DNA of 20,926 nt. Origin: a bacterium. Its GTDB lineage: Bacteria > Blakebacterota > Blakebacteria > Blakebacterales > Blakebacteraceae. The notes below the pieces were generated by a model that did not search any database, had not been told where the DNA came from, and saw nothing but the letters and a program-made list of their open reading frames with translations. How positions within the stretch are numbered: the stretch's first letter is position 1; each line of letters opens with the position of its first letter. Shown here piece after piece: positions 4,458 to 20,926 of this stretch. The position numbers were made by a program, and so were the translations under genes. Where the stretch lies: contig JALGVQ010000061.1 in NCBI GenBank assembly GCA_025774615.1, positions 1 to 20,926 of the forward strand, written 5' to 3'.

Positions 4458-6875
4458 ATGAGTTCTCTTCTCCAGGATTTCCGCCACAGCGTCCGGATGT
4501 TCGTGAAGAACCCGGGCCTTGCCATCACCTGTGTGGTGACGCTGGCATTGGGCATCGGTCTCACCACCACGATGTTCATCATCGTCAACGGCGCATTGTA
4601 TGAACCGCTCCCCTTCGAAGAGTCCCGGGACCTGCGGTTCCTCACGGGGAACAATCCTTCCGAAGGCCTGGATCAGATGGGCATCTCGATCCACGACTTC
4701 ACCGACATGCGGGCCCAGCAGACCTCGTTCGAGGATCTCTCGGGTTGGTATGGGGGCACTGTCAATATCGTCAGCGAGGGAGATAATCCGATCCGGTACG
4801 ATGGCGCGTTCATCACTCCCGGCGCTTTCTCCGCTCTGCGGATCCAGCCCGTGATGGGCCGGATCTTCACCGAAGAGGAGCGGGCAAGTGACGCGTTACC
4901 GGTGATCGTGATCGGGTATGACGTCTGGCAGACCCGGTTCGAAGGTGATCCGGAGATCCTGGGCAGATCGATCCGGGTCAACGGTGAGACTTCGACGATC
5001 ATCGGCGTCATGCCCGAGGGATTCTTCTTCCCGATGGAAGAAGAACTCTGGCTGCCCCAGAAACAGGATCCCCTGGTACTCCTGAGGGGTGACGGCGTCT
5101 ATCTGAATGTGATGGGACGCCTGAGAAAGGGTGTCAACGACGAGCAGGCGACCGAGGAATTCAACTCCATTGCCGCCAACCTGGCCCGTGAGTATCCCGA
5201 GACGAATGAAGGTGTTGGCATCCAGGTTCAGAAAATTTCCGCGCTGATCATGGGATCCGAGGGAAACATCGTACTCCACCTGATGCTGGTGGCCACATTC
5301 GCGGTGATGCTGATCGCCTGCTTCAACGTGGCGAACCTCCTGCTGGCGCGCGCATCCCTGCGCACCAGGGAGATGGCGGTCCGGACCTCTCTCGGAGCGA
5401 CCCGGAAGAGGTTGATCAGACAACTCGTCATCGAGGCATCATCCCTCTCTGTTGTCGGAGCTGCAATCGGTCTTGCCCTCGGTCACATCGGTATCACGAT
5501 ATTCATGCAGTACGCCCAGGGGAGCGATCCGCCCTACTGGTTCAAGTTCAACATCGATCTGAATGTGATCCTCTTTGTTACCGGGATGATGCTTATCTCC
5601 TCCCTTTTTGCGGGGATATTCCCGGCACTCCAGGCTTCAAGCCCCAATATCAATGAGGTCCTCAAGGATGAATCCCGGGGCGCTTCTGGTTTCCGCATGT
5701 CGAGATTCAGCAGGTTCCTGGTCATCTCCGAGATAGCCTTTTCACTCGGCCTCCTCTTCGCGGCTGGCCTGATCACGCAGAGTGTGATGAACCTCAGCCG
5801 GTTCGACTTCGGGATCGAGGGTGAGAACGTCATGACCGCAAGGCTCGGTCTGTTCGATACCGACTATCCGACCGTCGAGAGCCGAACGCAGTTCTTCAAG
5901 GAACTCCATGCACAACTGAATGAGATTCCAGGTGTCTTCTCAGCATCAATCACTCCCTTCCTGCCGGTACGCGGTGCCGATGGAACCGACTTCATATTCG
6001 AGGGGGTCGATTATCCCCCCGAATCAGATTTCCCCTTCACCAATCTGAAGCCCGTCACCCCCGATTATTTCAATACCTTCGGGATCGAGATCCTCCAGGG
6101 CCGTGATTTTACCTCTACCGACGTTGCCGGCGGACTCCCCGTAGCTCTCGTAAACCAGAGTTTTGCGGAGAAATGGTCTCCGGGTGAGAGCCCGATCGGA
6201 AAGCGGGCGCGGGGGGCCACCGATGGCGGGAATGACCCCTGGTTCACCATCATCGGGGTAGTCGGAGATGAATGGACCGATACCGAGAACAATGTACCGG
6301 AGATCGCTTATGTAAGCCTCTACCAGTCAGATGCCGAGTTCGTCAGTCTGGCGGTGATGACCGGTGGCGATCCGCTTTCCTACGCCTCTGCAATACGCGG
6401 GGCAGTACAATCGGTGGATGGAGACCTCCCGATCTACTGGGTCATGCCGATGAGTGAAGTGATCTTCGAGGTGACCTGGTTCTACGCGGTCTTCGGGTCG
6501 ATGATTATGATCGCCGGGCTCTTTGCGCTCTTTCTTGCTTCGATCGGTCTCTACGGCGTGATGGCCTTCTCCGTCAGTCGCCGGACGCAGGAACTGGGGA
6601 TCAGGATGGCACTCGGCGCACAATCGGGGAACCTGGTTCGCATGATCGTCAGACAGGCCGTGGTGCAGCTTGTAATCGGCGTGGTTCTCGGTATCGGTCT
6701 TGCGCTGGGTCTCGCTCAGGGTGTCCGTATGCTCCTTTTCGGGGTCTCTCCAACCGATCCCGTCATGTTCGTACTCATCGTGGTGATCCTGGGTGGGACC
6801 GGGACCCTTGCCTCACTCATCCCGGCAAGACGGGCGACCCGTATCGATCCATTGATGACTCTCAGGTATGAATAG
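4458..6875 (+). CDS. ADOP-family (MacB/FtsX-like) duplicated orphan permease, copy 1
   Basis: The 805 residues match the usual length (about 800) of the ADOP family, which duplicates the MacB periplasmic domain plus FtsX permease unit. One membrane segment (about 21-46) is followed by a periplasmic domain. Three membrane segments (about 270-400) follow, including NVANLLLARASLRTREMAVR. Then come a second N-terminal-type segment near 415-440, a second periplasmic domain, and three last membrane segments (about 675-800) with RRTQELGIRMALGAQ. The end, PARRATRIDPLMTLRYE, is a family signature. Relatives work with ABC ATPases to move substrates or transmit mechanical force across the envelope, but no ATPase gene lies nearby, as is typical of ADOPs. 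ATG 4458 follows AGGA with a 7-base spacer. Substrate unknown. Confidence 0.93.
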   Translation: MSSLLQDFRHSVRMFVKNPGLAITCVVTLALGIGLTTTMFIIVNGALYEPLPFEESRDLRFLTGNNPSEGLDQMGISIHDFTDMRAQQTSFEDLSGWYGGTVNIVSEGDNPIRYDGAFITPGAFSALRIQPVMGRIFTEEERASDALPVIVIGYDVWQTRFEGDPEILGRSIRVNGETSTIIGVMPEGFFFPMEEELWLPQKQDPLVLLRGDGVYLNVMGRLRKGVNDEQATEEFNSIAANLAREYPETNEGVGIQVQKISALIMGSEGNIVLHLMLVATFAVMLIACFNVANLLLARASLRTREMAVRTSLGATRKRLIRQLVIEASSLSVVGAAIGLALGHIGITIFMQYAQGSDPPYWFKFNIDLNVILFVTGMMLISSLFAGIFPALQASSPNINEVLKDESRGASGFRMSRFSRFLVISEIAFSLGLLFAAGLITQSVMNLSRFDFGIEGENVMTARLGLFDTDYPTVESRTQFFKELHAQLNEIPGVFSASITPFLPVRGADGTDFIFEGVDYPPESDFPFTNLKPVTPDYFNTFGIEILQGRDFTSTDVAGGLPVALVNQSFAEKWSPGESPIGKRARGATDGGNDPWFTIIGVVGDEWTDTENNVPEIAYVSLYQSDAEFVSLAVMTGGDPLSYASAIRGAVQSVDGDLPIYWVMPMSEVIFEVTWFYAVFGSMIMIAGLFALFLASIGLYGVMAFSVSRRTQELGIRMALGAQSGNLVRMIVRQAVVQLVIGVVLGIGLALGLAQGVRMLLFGVSPTDPVMFVLIVVILGGTGTLASLIPARRATRIDPLMTLRYE

Positions 6876-6965
6876 ACGATAACCTGATGTAGACTCGCCT
6901 GCGATCGGATCTGGTTCACACCGAGAGGGAGCCCCGCACGGGTTCAGTGATGAATATTTCCGGAG

Positions 6966-6987
6966 GGCGACAACGGCAACAGTCGCC
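6966..6987. repeat. Inverted repeat in the gap after ADOP copy 1
   Basis: GGCGAC (6966-6971) and GTCGCC (6982-6987) are perfect complements around a 10-base loop, 91 bases after the ADOP stop codon. There is no T-tract, so a terminator role is uncertain. The 205-base gap 6876-7080 otherwise holds only the dyad at 7015-7030. Confidence 0.3.
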
Positions 6988-7014
6988 TGGTTCGAGAAGT
7001 GTCTACTGGACAGA

Positions 7015-7030
7015 TAGTTCATCAGAACTA
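7015..7030. promoter_or_regulatory. 16-base dyad upstream of the TlpA-like gene
   Basis: TAGTTC-ATCA-GAACTA is a perfect 6-4-6 palindrome, 50 bases before GTG 7081. The form suits a dimeric repressor or activator site, or a small mRNA hairpin. No regulator is encoded beside it. Confidence 0.35.
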
Positions 7031-7080
7031 GATTCTTGATGCAGATGAGATCCAGAAAACCAGGCACAAGGGAGATGTTT

Positions 7081-7190
7081 GTGAAGAAGATACGACAATT
7101 GAGAGGCGTTCCATGGTTGGCTCTGGTACCACTCCTGATCCTGGGATTATCAGGCTGCTCGAAGGAGCGCCGGCCACCGCTGCGCTGGAT
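7081..7190 (+). other. Lipoprotein signal peptide in a different frame from the TlpA-like body (apparent frameshift)
   Basis: GTG 7081 follows AGGGAG (7069-7074) with a 6-base spacer, an excellent ribosome-binding site. It encodes K-K-I-R-Q-L-R, a hydrophobic stretch, then the lipobox L-S-G-C with Cys26 at 7156-7158, a textbook lipoprotein leader. After S-K-E this frame becomes arginine-rich nonsense and stops at 7303-7305. The frame one base back (codon starts divisible by 3) carries the natural continuation, ATAALDTLQAEYDSSELARG. Joining leader and body needs a -1 shift, or one missing base, at about 7159-7180. No classic slippery heptamer is visible there, although an SD-like AAGGAG lies within it. 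The cause may be a sequencing indel, a true mutation or recoding. Confidence 0.7.
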
Positions 7191-8138
7191 ACGCTCCAGG
7201 CGGAGTACGACTCAAGCGAACTGGCTCGTGGTGAGAAGGCTGCAACCTTCTTCACGAGATACCAGGACCTCGCGAGCGAGTACCGGGGTACGGAAGCAGG
7301 GCTGAAGGCTGAGATGTGGATCCTCAGCGCGACCGAGGCACGCTCCCTCGAAGAGGCTGAGAGCATCGATGCCCCTTCCAGGGAGGAAGTCATCGAATCG
7401 ATCTTCGAAGGATATACCGGTTCTCCCCATATGTACCTTCTGTCGGAGAACTGGTATGCAGTTCCAGCAGCCGAGCACCAGGAACGGTTCGGCTATCTGA
7501 TGGAGAATTCCCCCCACGCACAGGTCCGGGCATCAGCCATGTACGTACTGGCCACCCTCGCCGAGCGTGGTGATGTCACAGCCGAGATGGAGCAGCGCCG
7601 CGTCGACCTTCTGACCGGGCTGGTCGATGACTACACCGATGAAGCCTGGAATGAGACCACCTATGGTGCGATCGCTGCGGCGGAGCTGAACCCGCACGAC
7701 CCGGCCGACCTCGAGGTCGGTGACCCCGCGCCGGAGATTACCGGCTGGAACCATGACGGTGAGGAGATGAAGTTGAGCGACTATCTCGGAAAGGTAGTGG
7801 TCCTCGATTTCTGGGGGGACTGGTGACCGCCTTGCCGGGCCATGTACCCACACGAGCGGTCGCTCGTTGCCAGACTGGAAGAAGAACCTTTCACCATCGT
7901 CGGCGTGAACAGCGATCCTGCTGAGCGTTACCGGACCGCGATCGTCGAAAACGAGATCACCTGGCCGTCATTCGCTGACGGCGGCACCACCGGAGGACCG
8001 ATCGCCACCCGCTGGGGCGTGACCGGGTGGCCCACTGTGTACGTGATCGATCATGAGGGCGTGATCAGGTCGGTCAGCCACTCCCTCGACGAGGACCTGG
8101 TCGACCAGTTGATCGCAGCATCCCGATCAGGTTCTTGA
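7113..8138 (+). CDS. TlpA/thioredoxin-like oxidoreductase with in-frame UGA at the redox Cys (candidate selenoprotein)
   Basis: In one frame from ATG 7113 the protein is 341 residues with a single internal UGA at codon 238 (7824-7826). Residues up to about 200 are helical and acidic, as in the N-terminal extensions of many TlpA-like lipoproteins. The redoxin domain opens with VGDPAPEITGW and KLSDYLGKVVVLDFWGDW. Then come UGA, P-P, Cys241 and R-A-M-Y-P-H-E. TlpA and thioredoxins have W-C-x-x-C here, so the UGA replaces the first, nucleophilic cysteine. The frame continues intact for 103 codons through IVGVNSD and the cis-proline motif GWPTVYVID to TGA 8136-8138. TGA also ends six other genes here, so the standard code is used. 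ATG 7113 has GAGAGG six bases upstream but gives no signal peptide; the real leader is probably the one at 7081. Role: thiol-disulfide exchange in the envelope. Alternative: a decaying gene. Confidence 0.8.
7824..7861 (+). promoter_or_regulatory. SECIS-like hairpin beginning at the in-frame UGA
   Basis: GACCGC (7825-7830), whose first two bases belong to the UGA, pairs perfectly with GCGGTC (7856-7861). With C7831 bulged, TTG 7832-7834 pairs with CGA 7853-7855, giving nine pairs. Above a small internal loop, GGG 7837-7839 can pair with CCC 7847-7849 around a loop of CCATGTA. Bacterial SECIS elements are stem-loops within the coding sequence just after the UGA that bind SelB, often with a G at the start of the apical loop; that holds here if the top G-C pair opens. 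Drawn by eye, not energy-minimised. Confidence 0.5.
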
Positions 8139-13585: not shown

Positions 13586-16027
13586 CTACTCCTGCGTCAA
13601 CACAACCATCGGATCAATCCTGGCAGCCCTCCACGCAGGCAGGAGGCAGGCCAGAAGCGCAATCGCGGCAAGCAGGACAATTCCCGAAAAGAGAGTCAGC
13701 GGGTCGAAGGAGTTGACACCATATATCAGATTCGAAACCAGTCGTGCCAGCAGAAGGGCTCCGACAACACCAGCCCCGATCCCTATCAGAACCATCCGGA
13801 ACCCGTCACGGACGATCAGGCCGATAACACTCCATGAACCAGCACCCAGGGCAACACGAACTCCGATCTCGCTGGAACGCTGAGCGACCGAGAAGCTGAG
13901 AACACCATAAAGACCCACTGCGGCCATGAGGAGCGCTGTCAGAGCAAAGAGCCCCAGAAGCTGCATGTTGAACCGGCGCTGGGCCAGAGAGGTCGAGAGG
14001 ACCTCGACCATGCTCACCATCTCGGTCACCGGCTGATCAGGATCGATATCAGCCACGACCTGCCGCAGAGTGGAGAAGACCATTTCAGATTCGGCCCGAC
14101 TCTTGATCACCATGGTCAGAAACGGCATCGGTGACTGCGAGAAAGGCCGGAAGATCTCAGAACGTGGTTCACTATCAAGAGATTCAAACCGCGTGTTCCC
14201 CACAACCCCGACGATCTCAGCCCATAACGTCTCGGGATCGGTCGGATCGCCCCAGGTAACCTGTTTACCCAGGGGATTCTCTCCGGACCACATCTCCTCG
14301 GCGAGCGCCTGATTTATCACTACAACCTGGGGGCCATTCTCGTTGTCAGTCTGCTCCAGAGTCCTCCCGCTCAACAATGGGATCCCCATGATCCGAAAAT
14401 AATCTTCGCTCACCAGCTGGAAACCACAGACCGGATCCTGGCCTGGTTCCACCGGTCTGTCCTGGATGTTAAAGGCAAGGGTTCCGGTTAAACCTGGATT
14501 GATCGGCAGGCTCAGAACCGCCGCGGCTCCATCGATCCCCGGTCTGGCCTCCATCTGCTCGATGACCTCCCGATAGAATCCGGTCACCTGCACATCTTCA
14601 CTGTATGTACTGCCGGGTATCCAGACACGCGCGGTATGGACCAGCTCAGGATCGAACCCCGGATTCACCTCGTTGAGAGCCATGAATGTCCGCACCATCA
14701 GGCCGGCACCGACCAGGAGTATCAGAGATACCGCCACTTCACTGATGATCAGCCCATTGCGAACGTTTCTTCTGGTTCGCCCGGCGGTGTGCTTCCCCCC
14801 ACCTTCACGCACCGCATTCATCAGGTTCCCTCCAGAGGAATGAAGCGCTGGAAGCAGACCGAACAACAGACCGGTCGCCATGGAGATGAACATGGTAAAC
14901 CCGAGAACGGTCCAGTCGACCGCAACCGAGGCCACCCGCGGAATCTCCTCGGGAACCAGTGCGAGGAGGAGCTCGGTTCCCCAGAACGCGAACGTGAGTC
15001 CGAGGATTCCTCCCACGAGAGCCAGGATGGCACTCTCGGTAACAAGTTGCCGGATCACTCGCGTTCGGGTCGCGCCGATCGCCATCCTGACGGCGATCTC
15101 CCGCTCCCTGCCGGAGGCACGCACCAGAAGCAGGTTCGCCACATTTGCGCAGGCTATCAGGAGAACGAACCCGACGGCACCGAAGAGTGTCATGAGGATA
15201 GAGCGTACATCACCAACTATCGCTTCCCGCAGGGAAACGATGTTGTAACCCTCGTCAGCGCTGAATCCAGGATATTCCTGACGGAGTCCCAGACCGATTG
15301 ACTCGAGTTCAGTGCGCGCCTGCTCCAGGGAGACATCATCTTTCAGCCGCGCGAAGGTATCAAAATATTCCGCTCCACGATTATCTGCCGGATCTCCTCC
15401 CAAAGGGAAGGGAGGGTCGGGTACGCTATATCTCGATGAAGCCCAGAACTGGGCTGTCTCGGGATAGCCGACACCCGGAGCCAGTATCCCGACGACGGTA
15501 TATGGTTCATCATTCAGCTCGATCGATTGTCCGAGAATCCCTTCATCCCCCCCGAATTCCACCTGCCAGAGGCCGTGGCTGAGCACGACGACGCGATTTT
15601 CTCCCGGCAAATCGGTCCCGGAAGCCAGCACCCGTCCCCGCCAGGCACCGATTCCGAGCATCTCGAACCAGTTGGATGTGACCGATGCACCCCTCAGCAT
15701 CCGGGGCAGATCGTACCCGGTCAGGGTAAGGTTGGCTCCGCATATACCTGCCAACTCATCGAAGGAATCACTCTGCTCCCTGATGTCGATGAAGGTCGCG
15801 CCATCCCAGTTGTCCCGGTCGCTATCGGGAGTGGTGCTCCAGACCCGTACCAGACGATCAGGTTCCCTGAATGGCAGAGGCTGCAGCACGACACCGTTGA
15901 CGATACTGAAGATCGAGGTGGTTGCGCCGATCCCAAGTGCGAGAGTGAGCACGGCAATCACGGTAAAACCGGGTCGTTTCAACAGGGTCCGGATCCCATA
16001 TCGGATATCGTGCAGAAAGTCAGCCAT
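13586..16027 (-). CDS. ADOP-family (MacB/FtsX-like) duplicated orphan permease, copy 2
   Basis: The 813 residues show the same two-unit layout as the copy at 4458-6875. The N-terminus FLHDIRYGIRTLLKRPGFT is the typical ADOP opening. A membrane segment (about 21-45), a first periplasmic domain and a permease block with NVANLLLVRASGREREIAVRM follow. The second unit ends in RSSEIGVRVALGAG and the C-terminal PAWRAARIDPMVVLTQE. ATG 16027 has GGGAG six bases upstream. It is transcribed divergently from a TolC-family channel gene, with a 202-base shared promoter region, so a functional link (permease plus outer-membrane exit) is plausible but unproven. No ATPase or membrane-fusion gene is adjacent. 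Confidence 0.93.
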   Translation of the reverse strand: MADFLHDIRYGIRTLLKRPGFTVIAVLTLALGIGATTSIFSIVNGVVLQPLPFREPDRLVRVWSTTPDSDRDNWDGATFIDIREQSDSFDELAGICGANLTLTGYDLPRMLRGASVTSNWFEMLGIGAWRGRVLASGTDLPGENRVVVLSHGLWQVEFGGDEGILGQSIELNDEPYTVVGILAPGVGYPETAQFWASSRYSVPDPPFPLGGDPADNRGAEYFDTFARLKDDVSLEQARTELESIGLGLRQEYPGFSADEGYNIVSLREAIVGDVRSILMTLFGAVGFVLLIACANVANLLLVRASGREREIAVRMAIGATRTRVIRQLVTESAILALVGGILGLTFAFWGTELLLALVPEEIPRVASVAVDWTVLGFTMFISMATGLLFGLLPALHSSGGNLMNAVREGGGKHTAGRTRRNVRNGLIISEVAVSLILLVGAGLMVRTFMALNEVNPGFDPELVHTARVWIPGSTYSEDVQVTGFYREVIEQMEARPGIDGAAAVLSLPINPGLTGTLAFNIQDRPVEPGQDPVCGFQLVSEDYFRIMGIPLLSGRTLEQTDNENGPQVVVINQALAEEMWSGENPLGKQVTWGDPTDPETLWAEIVGVVGNTRFESLDSEPRSEIFRPFSQSPMPFLTMVIKSRAESEMVFSTLRQVVADIDPDQPVTEMVSMVEVLSTSLAQRRFNMQLLGLFALTALLMAAVGLYGVLSFSVAQRSSEIGVRVALGAGSWSVIGLIVRDGFRMVLIGIGAGVVGALLLARLVSNLIYGVNSFDPLTLFSGIVLLAAIALLACLLPAWRAARIDPMVVLTQE

Positions 16028-19189: not shown

Positions 19190-20926
19190 ATGGAATCATT
19201 ACTGCAGGATCTGAAGTACGGACTGAAACTCCTCTGGAAAGAGAAAGGCTTCACCATCACGGCGCTGCTGACCCTGGCGGTCTGCATCGGCGCCAACAGC
19301 ACCATCTTCAGCGTGATCAACACGGTGATCCTGAGACCCCTGCCCTACGAGGATCCGGGACGTCTGGTCATGACCTTCAACAGCTATCCCGGAGCTGGCG
19401 TCGGAAACATGGGCGCGGTTGGAGGTGGAGACTATTTCTTCCGGCGGGATGGTATCGAGGCGTTCGCTGAATGCGGCCTGTTCCAGAATGCCGGCAACAC
19501 CCTGGGTGACGAGAACGGGACTGAACGGGTTGCCAGTGTCAATGTCACTCCATCATTCCTGCCGATGCTGGGTGTTGAACCCGCCCTGGGGCGACATTTC
19601 ACCGAGGATGAGATGGAACCGGGCAATCAGTTCAAGACGATCATCACTCATGGATTCTGGCACGATCGGTTCTCCGAATCCCCTGATATCCTCGATCAGG
19701 AACTGCGGATCGACGGGCGAAATTACACCATCGTCGGCGTCCTGCCGGCCGATTTCCGGCTGTGGAACCGACGGGACACCCGGTTCTTCCTCCCGATCGC
19801 ATTCCCCGAAGAGGCCCGCGGACTTCAGTCGCTCCACAGCAATAATTTTCAGATGATTGCCCGTCTTGCTCCCGACGCCACCATCGAACAGGCGGTGAGC
19901 CAGCTCGATGTGCTGAACGCAGCCCTTACCGAACAGTCCCCGATCCCCAACGCCATCCAACTCCTCGAGGATGCCGGATTCCATACCCAGGTCCATGATC
20001 TCCAGCGCTTCCTGGTGCGGGATATCCGTGACTCCTTCTACATGCTCTGGGCGGGTGTGTTCCTGGTTCTGCTCATCGGCTGTGTGAATATAGCCAACCT
20101 TCTCTTTACACGGTCGAATGTACGTATGGGAGAACTTGCCACCCGCTTCGCGCTGGGAGCCGACCGGAAGCGGCTTACCCGCCAGCTTATCTCGGAGAGC
20201 GTTCTCCTCTCGATAATCGGCGGAGCTCTCGGGATCGGTGTCGCTCTGCTCGGACTGAAACTGCTGACCGTCCTTGGCGCCGATCAGGTCCCGCGGGGCG
20301 CGGAGATCGGTCTGGACGGCAGTGTTCTGCTCTTCACCCTCCTCCTTGCCATCGCTGCCGGGATACTTTTCGGCGCGATCCCACTTTTCAGGATCTTCCG
20401 CCTCGATCTGAGCAGCGTCTTCCGGCAGGAGGGACGTACGATCACTGGCGGAAAACGCACATCACTGCTACGGAATACCCTGGTTGTATTTCAGGTCGCG
20501 GTGGCGTTCATCCTGCTTGTAGGAGCAAGTCTGCTGTTCAGCAGTTTCCGGCAGGTCCTGAAGGTGAACCCCGGTTTCGAGCCTGAATCGATCCTGACCG
20601 GTTTTATCGACCTGCCCGGATCGAGGTATGAGGATGCCGCCGCCCGCCGGCAGTTCATCGACCAGTTGCTCGCAGAGGTACGCACACTCCCCGGTGTCAC
20701 TGAGGCAGCCGTCGTCACCGGACTCCCCTTCACCGGTAACAATTCTTCGAATGTGATCATGCCGGAGGGATACCAGCCACAGCCGGGTGAGTCAGTTCTC
20801 GCTCCAGCGACGATATGGGCGGGCCCGGAGTACTTCCAGACGATGGGGATCCCCCTGCTCGAGGGCCGGTATTTCGAGGAAGCCGATACCGAAGGGACCG
20901 AGCAGGTACTCATCATCGATGCCTGG
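19190..20926 (+). CDS. ADOP-family permease, copy 3, truncated at the window edge
   Basis: The frame from ATG 19190 stays open for 579 codons to the window end, without a stop. The start M-E-S-L-L-Q-D-L-K-Y-G-L-K-L-L-W and the first membrane segment (A-L-L-T-L-A-V-C-I-G-A-N-S-T-I-F-S) match the other two copies. A periplasmic domain with LGVEPALGRHFT and IVGVLPADF follows. The first permease block contains G-C-V-N-I-A-N-L-L-F-T-R-S and L-G-A-D-R-K-R-L-T-R-Q-L. The second unit begins near residue 423 (LLRNTLVVFQVAVAF). About 220 residues, including the last three membrane segments, should lie beyond the window. GGGGA sits nine bases upstream of the ATG. Sequence detail differs clearly from copies 1 and 2, so these are diverged paralogues, not a recent duplication. 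Confidence 0.92.
   Translation, partial: MESLLQDLKYGLKLLWKEKGFTITALLTLAVCIGANSTIFSVINTVILRPLPYEDPGRLVMTFNSYPGAGVGNMGAVGGGDYFFRRDGIEAFAECGLFQNAGNTLGDENGTERVASVNVTPSFLPMLGVEPALGRHFTEDEMEPGNQFKTIITHGFWHDRFSESPDILDQELRIDGRNYTIVGVLPADFRLWNRRDTRFFLPIAFPEEARGLQSLHSNNFQMIARLAPDATIEQAVSQLDVLNAALTEQSPIPNAIQLLEDAGFHTQVHDLQRFLVRDIRDSFYMLWAGVFLVLLIGCVNIANLLFTRSNVRMGELATRFALGADRKRLTRQLISESVLLSIIGGALGIGVALLGLKLLTVLGADQVPRGAEIGLDGSVLLFTLLLAIAAGILFGAIPLFRIFRLDLSSVFRQEGRTITGGKRTSLLRNTLVVFQVAVAFILLVGASLLFSSFRQVLKVNPGFEPESILTGFIDLPGSRYEDAAARRQFIDQLLAEVRTLPGVTEAAVVTGLPFTGNNSSNVIMPEGYQPQPGESVLAPATIWAGPEYFQTMGIPLLEGRYFEEADTEGTEQVLIIDAW

Follow-up and report, generated by a model that had tools for sequence, protein, structure and literature searches.

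Background

Selenoproteins that carry a UxxC motif (U, selenocysteine, Sec) in a thioredoxin fold are already known, and the gene analysed here is a further member of this broad kind. Those with a COG0526/TlpA domain were found in the GOS survey as Trx-like 1 (321 sequences; PMC2398784), and a 2026 review lists UxxC selenoproteins with COG0526/TlpA, PF00578 and PF08534 domains (PMC13188914 Table 1). The Trx-like 1 or thiol-disulfide isomerase-like group (COG0526, cd02966; PMC2398784, PMC13188914) shares with our gene the TlpA-like thioredoxin fold, Sec as the first residue of UxxC, common Cys homologues and a predicted bacterial SECIS element (bSECIS); its comparison with the subfamily presented below, which has a helical N-terminus and an invariant hairpin, is one of domain and motif only. 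Two other entries of the review are alike in their Pfam match and in the UxxC motif: the Prx-like thiol:disulfide oxidoreductases (PF00578, UxxC/UxxU) and the redoxin family selenoproteins (PF08534, UxxC). Their descriptions in the table, on which this comparison is based, mention no helical N-terminal domain (PMC13188914 Table 1).

Among Cys enzymes, the ResA/TlpA/CcmG group resembles our protein in fold (Z 19-20, about 131-133 residues aligned), position of the active site and Trp-Pro loop, and in its extracytoplasmic location, which for our protein is predicted from the orthologue and the paralogue. Contrary to these enzymes, our protein has a putative Sec in place of the first Cys and an additional helical N-terminal domain, and it scores 65-74 bits with the model of ResA proper (NCBIfam PRK03147), whose cut-off is 170. 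The ResA-like WAxxUGC selenoprotein (NF041054) likewise combines a ResA-like domain with an active-site selenocysteine, but its motif is UGC instead of UxxC and its model gives 33-39 bits against a cut-off of 300. None of the NCBIfam models reaches its cut-off on the family, and a search of the open-access literature found no paper on this subfamily in Planctomycetota or Gemmatimonadota.

The stretch of DNA analysed, called here the window, comprises 20,926 nt of contig JALGVQ010000061.1. Our computational analysis establishes for its TlpA-like gene (the window gene) a shared UGA column, Sec machinery in the genome, conservation of a hairpin, exchange of Cys and Sec, the fold and the presence of DsbD. 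We propose that the UGA codon in this gene family is very probably decoded as Sec, which would make the product a W-U-P-P-C selenoprotein.

Results and discussion

An in-frame UGA codon in the active site of a TlpA-like gene

The following features of the window gene, all on the forward strand, are referred to throughout.

7081..7166, likely true N-terminus, with GTG start and lipoprotein signal peptide VKKIRQLRGVPWLALVPLLILGLSGC (comparison with the starts of the orthologue L030 and the paralogue L009)
7162..7168, site of one base fewer than in orthologue and paralogue, at about 7164-7167 (side-by-side sequences)
7164..7691, N-terminal all-helical domain of about 176 residues (AlphaFold2 of the domain alone, pLDDT 90.2, pTM 0.84)
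7695..8135, TlpA/ResA-type thioredoxin-fold domain (AhpC-TSA PF00578, 82 bits; full model)
7824..7826, UGA, putative Sec codon, U of W-U-P-P-C (frame translation, homologue alignment)
7833..7835, TGC, putative resolving Cys of the UxxC pair (sequence; invariant among Sec members)
7852..7867, predicted bacterial SECIS hairpin ACGAGC-GGUC-GCUCGU, 6-bp stem and 4-nt loop, -7.9 kcal/mol
8028..8036, Trp-Pro-Thr of GWPT, at the cis-Pro loop position of thioredoxin-fold enzymes (sequence; cis presumed from the family)
8136..8138, TGA, stop codon of the gene (sequence)

The frame is open from 7113, meets TGA at 7824-7826, continues for 103 sense codons and ends with TGA at 8136-8138. Around the first TGA the protein reads VVVLDFWGDW-U-PPCRAMYPHERSL, and GWPTVYVID follows further downstream. 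The initial annotation had located this in-frame UGA exactly where a WCxxC motif has its first Cys, with 103 sense codons running through GWPTVYVID, and translation of the frame agrees on both points: the WCxxC of TlpA/ResA-type enzymes is present as its Sec variant, W-U-P-P-C, the first Cys being the UGA codon. Its statement that TGA also serves as a stop elsewhere and ends this same gene is equally borne out. As most genes of the window, the window gene included, terminate with TGA, the genetic code is standard apart from Sec.

Domains, predicted fold and selection

Besides PF00578, the window protein matches PF08534 with 65 bits. An AlphaFold2 model of the full protein, calculated with Cys for Sec and a 20-row alignment, reached pLDDT 93.9 and pTM 0.88, with helices at residues 2-175 followed by a thioredoxin fold. 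The C-terminal domain superimposes on DsbE-like 3gl3 (VIA-align Z 19.9, 1.7 A over 133 residues) and on ResA (Z 19.4, 1.6 A over 131 residues), and the model thus has the thioredoxin fold of ResA/TlpA kind. In the helical domain no Pfam family was found, and a Foldseek search of the PDB with this domain alone gave no significant match (best E 0.07), a result which does not imply a new fold.

Comparison with the orthologue L030 gave dN 0.16 and dS 0.85 for the codons after the UGA (dN/dS about 0.19), and dN 0.29 and dS 1.40 for those before it (dN/dS about 0.2). The codons downstream of the UGA are therefore under purifying selection.

Homologues and exchange of Cys and Sec

A paralogue in the same genome (L009, contig C51; 51% identical) and the orthologue in the sister genome G001 (L030; 66% identical) have UGA at the same column. 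A gene of bacterium isolate Meg22_46_Bin_213, which corresponds to the sister genome, is 99% identical to the orthologue (L075). Scanning of named genomes added eight further UGA homologues: two from Longimicrobiales (L076, L085), one from Gemmatimonadetes (L077), four from planctomycetes (L078, L079, L081, L098) and one from an unclassified bacterium (L093). Together with the window gene, its paralogue and its orthologue they form the set of 11 Sec genes used below. At the Sec column a Cys codon, TGC or TGT, stands in other homologues, among them some from Pirellulaceae and Bacteroidota, and in L060, a Cys homologue of the sister genome, the Cys aligns to it as well. Cys (TGC/TGT) or Sec (UGA) at the column of the window UGA is what the selenoprotein reading of the initial annotation led one to look for. 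The scan patterns may bias the ratio of Cys to Sec homologues and we claim none.

Three changes suffice to place the Sec and Cys labels on a tree of TlpA domains. The tree is poorly supported at depth and joins long branches, so the direction of change is not read from it; one Mariniblastus gene, discussed below (L101), is the only case for which a direction is proposed. No relative was found in viral contigs, either by protein search or by pattern. The best relative in a plasmid collection is a Cys homologue on plasmid pPL62-2 of Planctomyces sp. SH-PL62, which has no hairpin.

Some neighbouring arrangements were also observed. On one planctomycete contig a Sec member and a Cys member lie about 2.5 kb apart (L081; 3680-5143 and 7620-8888). 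Some Gemmatimonadota genomes have several TlpA-like genes without UGA clustered on one contig (G145:C5:89976-93349; L156, L169, L177).

Sec machinery of the source genome

The source genome is a 3.30 Mb draft in 324 contigs, 82% complete, and its phylum is very small, with four genomes in the collection searched. All four components of Sec decoding, whose presence the selenoprotein reading calls for, were found in it: selA (509 bits), selB (321 bits, 346 with neighbours, in a 701-residue frame), tRNA-Sec (selC; 66 bits, over the Rfam cut-off, and called by ARAGORN as tRNA-SeC with anticodon TCA) and selD (351 bits). The selD gene (L026, contig C273:7717-8634) itself has an in-frame UGA, in TCAG-U-ASK (GUASK Sec site), the known Sec site of selenophosphate synthetase; this makes it a good internal control for Sec decoding. 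selA was over the cut-off in all genomes bearing Sec forms (9/9), and also in most of the sampled planctomycetes with Cys forms only. Its presence is thus necessary here and not predictive.

Two other thioredoxin-like genes with in-frame TGA came to light. One, on contig C109 of the same genome (L007; 2666-3022, reverse strand), has the codon in a UxxC motif, FWFPT-U-GGCRVELPH, and to judge from its sequence is probably a further selenoprotein. The other is a different TlpA-like gene of a sister genus (L047, genome G003, contig C47:2245-2622), which reads FWGVW-U-GSCRSAVPH and is without the invariant hairpin; that genome also carries selA.

A predicted SECIS hairpin conserved between genomes

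According to the published consensus, bSECIS elements have an apical loop of 3-9 nt, a stem of 4-16 bp, a minimum free energy (MFE) of -7.5 kcal/mol or lower, G in loop position 1 or 2, and a distance of 16-37 nt between UGA and apical loop (PMC13188914 Fig. 2). The window hairpin agrees with each of the four constraints of this model, and a bSECIS prediction was one of the checks that the initial annotation had suggested. Loop and stem measure 4 nt and 6 bp, the loop is GGUC, the apical loop lies 31 nt after the UGA and the energy is -7.9 kcal/mol.

Taken from the window alone, the hairpin is not significant, and such an argument was rejected: a comparable hairpin follows 44 of the 868 TGA triplets of the window (about 5%), and 293 of 5000 synonymous reshuffles gave a hairpin as stable. 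As chance hairpins are this common, the case for a SECIS element rests on conservation between genomes. The 60-nt MFE fold of the window RNA from the UGA favours another pairing; with the 12 nt next to the UGA omitted, the hairpin becomes the optimum fold. Among the Sec homologues, L098 has lost the outermost A-U pair, and its contiguous hairpin does not reach the energy cut-off of the model. An Rfam scan of the window gave no matches.

All 11 Sec homologues share the 16-mer CACGAGCGGTCGCTCG (7851-7866) without a single difference, synonymous positions included, and likewise the codons TAC (+7) and CAC GAG CGG TCG CTC (+9 to +13 after the UGA). The frozen Arg, Ser and Leu codons are six-fold degenerate, and other columns with an invariant amino acid mostly use 2-4 codons. 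The sequences are related, so a product of per-codon probabilities is not a proper P value, and the argument is the contrast between alignment columns. As the hairpin hardly varies, covariation cannot be used as evidence. The codons for HERSL, frozen in Sec genes, vary in Cys genes. A column shared by 11 homologues, purifying selection after the UGA and six codons identical in 11/11 place the pattern beyond chance.

Cys homologues have no such hairpin in 15 of the 16 examined. The exception is the Mariniblastus gene (L101, 4151-4193), which has TGC in place of TGA and the identical 16-mer CACGAGCGGTCGCTCG, in a genome with selA. Its sequence suggests that it is likely a Sec gene recently converted to a Cys gene, with a relict SECIS.

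Census of planctomycete genomes

A pattern that prescribed the hairpin and the second Cys, and allowed any base in third position of the Sec codon, was searched in 392 planctomycete genomes. It recovered 58 sites in 45 of them, with TGA at 58/58, and the reversed control pattern gave 0 matches. When 20 of these sites were translated, all stayed in frame past the UGA, most of them for at least 100 residues.

The start of the window gene and its neighbourhood

The start implied by the initial annotation, ATG 7113, is not real. Both the orthologue and the paralogue start further upstream, at GTG-AAG, and their signal peptides end in LAGC or LTGC. A corresponding start is present in the window at GTG 7081, preceded by GGGAG at 7070-7074 and followed by a lipobox Cys at 7156-7158, and the peptide from this GTG, VKKIRQLRGVPWLALVPLLILGLSGC-SKE, is out of frame with the remainder of the gene. 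The window therefore has one base fewer than both of these relatives, at about 7164-7167 when the sequences are set side by side; the difference may stem from a fault of the assembly or from a recent lesion. The earlier description of the product as an envelope enzyme is supported by the orthologue and the paralogue, where the lipobox points to extracytoplasmic anchoring in the membrane; the window copy's own signal peptide, with its lipobox, is out of frame.

Immediately upstream (6930-7016), ATVAWFEKCLLDR, up to its stop, matches the C-terminal end, ATVAWFENYLLDR and stop, of a hydrolase-like gene. In the sister genome this gene lies upstream of the orthologue; the window has only its C-terminal end. 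The 21 kb also hold three large genes for permeases that are alike in build (MacB/FtsX type), at 4458-6875, 13586-16027 and 19190-20926, two on the forward and one on the reverse strand, with domains confirmed by search for the first only. The protein at 1-1833, truncated by the left end of the window, combines a PPC domain with a Peptidase_C14 domain of caspase-like type.

Other explanations of the UGA and of the window copy

If the base deletion at about 7164-7167 is real, no full lipoprotein would be made and the window copy would be decaying or non-functional, within a family that would still consist of genuine selenoproteins. Signal peptide and body do lie in different frames, and orthologue and paralogue are intact; however, comparison with the orthologue shows purifying selection on both halves of the gene (dN/dS about 0.2 on either side of the UGA), the UGA and the hairpin are fully conserved, and a single-base indel is easily an assembly error in a draft of 324 contigs. 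We regard decay of this copy as unlikely, though a matter for serious consideration.

Sec UGA codons are generally prone to termination. The UGA might accordingly act largely as a conditional stop under selenium-dependent regulation: cells short of selenium would make a truncated helical lipoprotein, and only those well supplied with it the full enzyme. The confident prediction of the N-terminal domain on its own would suit such a truncated product. There is no sign here of a role for the truncated form, however, and the N-terminal domain is almost missing from two homologues, L098 with Sec and L101 with Cys and the relict hairpin, which makes this explanation improbable.

In a fragmented draft (324 contigs, 82% complete), and the more so in a gene with another apparent lesion, one might suspect that an ordinary Cys enzyme has acquired the UGA by nonsense mutation or through an error of sequencing. 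Yet 11 genes, the majority of them from assemblies independent of one another, have UGA at this column, and the codon accompanies the same hairpin at 58 planctomycete sites; we consider this explanation very improbable. Least credible is a changed genetic code with UGA read genome-wide as Cys, Trp or Gly: the frame is indeed open on read-through, but UGA terminates the majority of the window's genes, among them this one, the genome has tRNA-Sec, selA, selB and selD, and the UGA is coupled to a SECIS hairpin.

Proposed mechanism

Decoding of the UGA as Sec, which we prefer, would proceed as follows. SelB carrying Sec-tRNA(Sec) would bind the hairpin at 7852-7867, and selenocysteine would be inserted at UGA 7824-7826. 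The product would be an exported, probably lipid-anchored thiol-disulfide oxidoreductase, built of the helical N-terminal domain and the TlpA/ResA-type domain. The selenolate of W-Sec-x-x-Cys would attack a disulfide or another oxidised sulfur group of the substrate, and the Cys three residues after Sec would resolve the mixed selenide-sulfide. The enzyme would then be re-reduced, plausibly by a DsbD-type transporter as electron donor; the source genome encodes DsbD with a C-terminal WCVAC thioredoxin domain. Its likely role is that of a reductase, with disulfides or oxidised thiols in envelope proteins as targets. The genes flanking it, for a MacB/FtsX-type permease and an epimerase-like protein, give no pointer to the substrate.

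Conclusions

Tentatively, we put forward the possibility that these genes represent an undescribed subfamily of envelope selenoproteins, in which a helical and a TlpA domain are combined and one invariant 16-nt SECIS cassette has been kept unchanged, perhaps while being passed between phyla: Planctomycetota, Gemmatimonadota and a tiny candidate phylum. The subfamily would include neighbouring Sec and Cys paralogues, as at L081, and at least one natural conversion of Sec to Cys that left an idle hairpin (L101).

Standard annotation cuts the window gene at the UGA and so hides the enzyme. A simple pattern of UGA and fixed hairpin recovers further members, in 45 of the 392 planctomycete genomes sampled, and the presence of the Sec-decoding trait in the window's candidate phylum is established. 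The family offers a clean, testable case of RNA-level selection on a coding segment, and its natural Cys homologues, one of them with a relict hairpin, permit a comparison of Sec and Cys in an envelope oxidoreductase.
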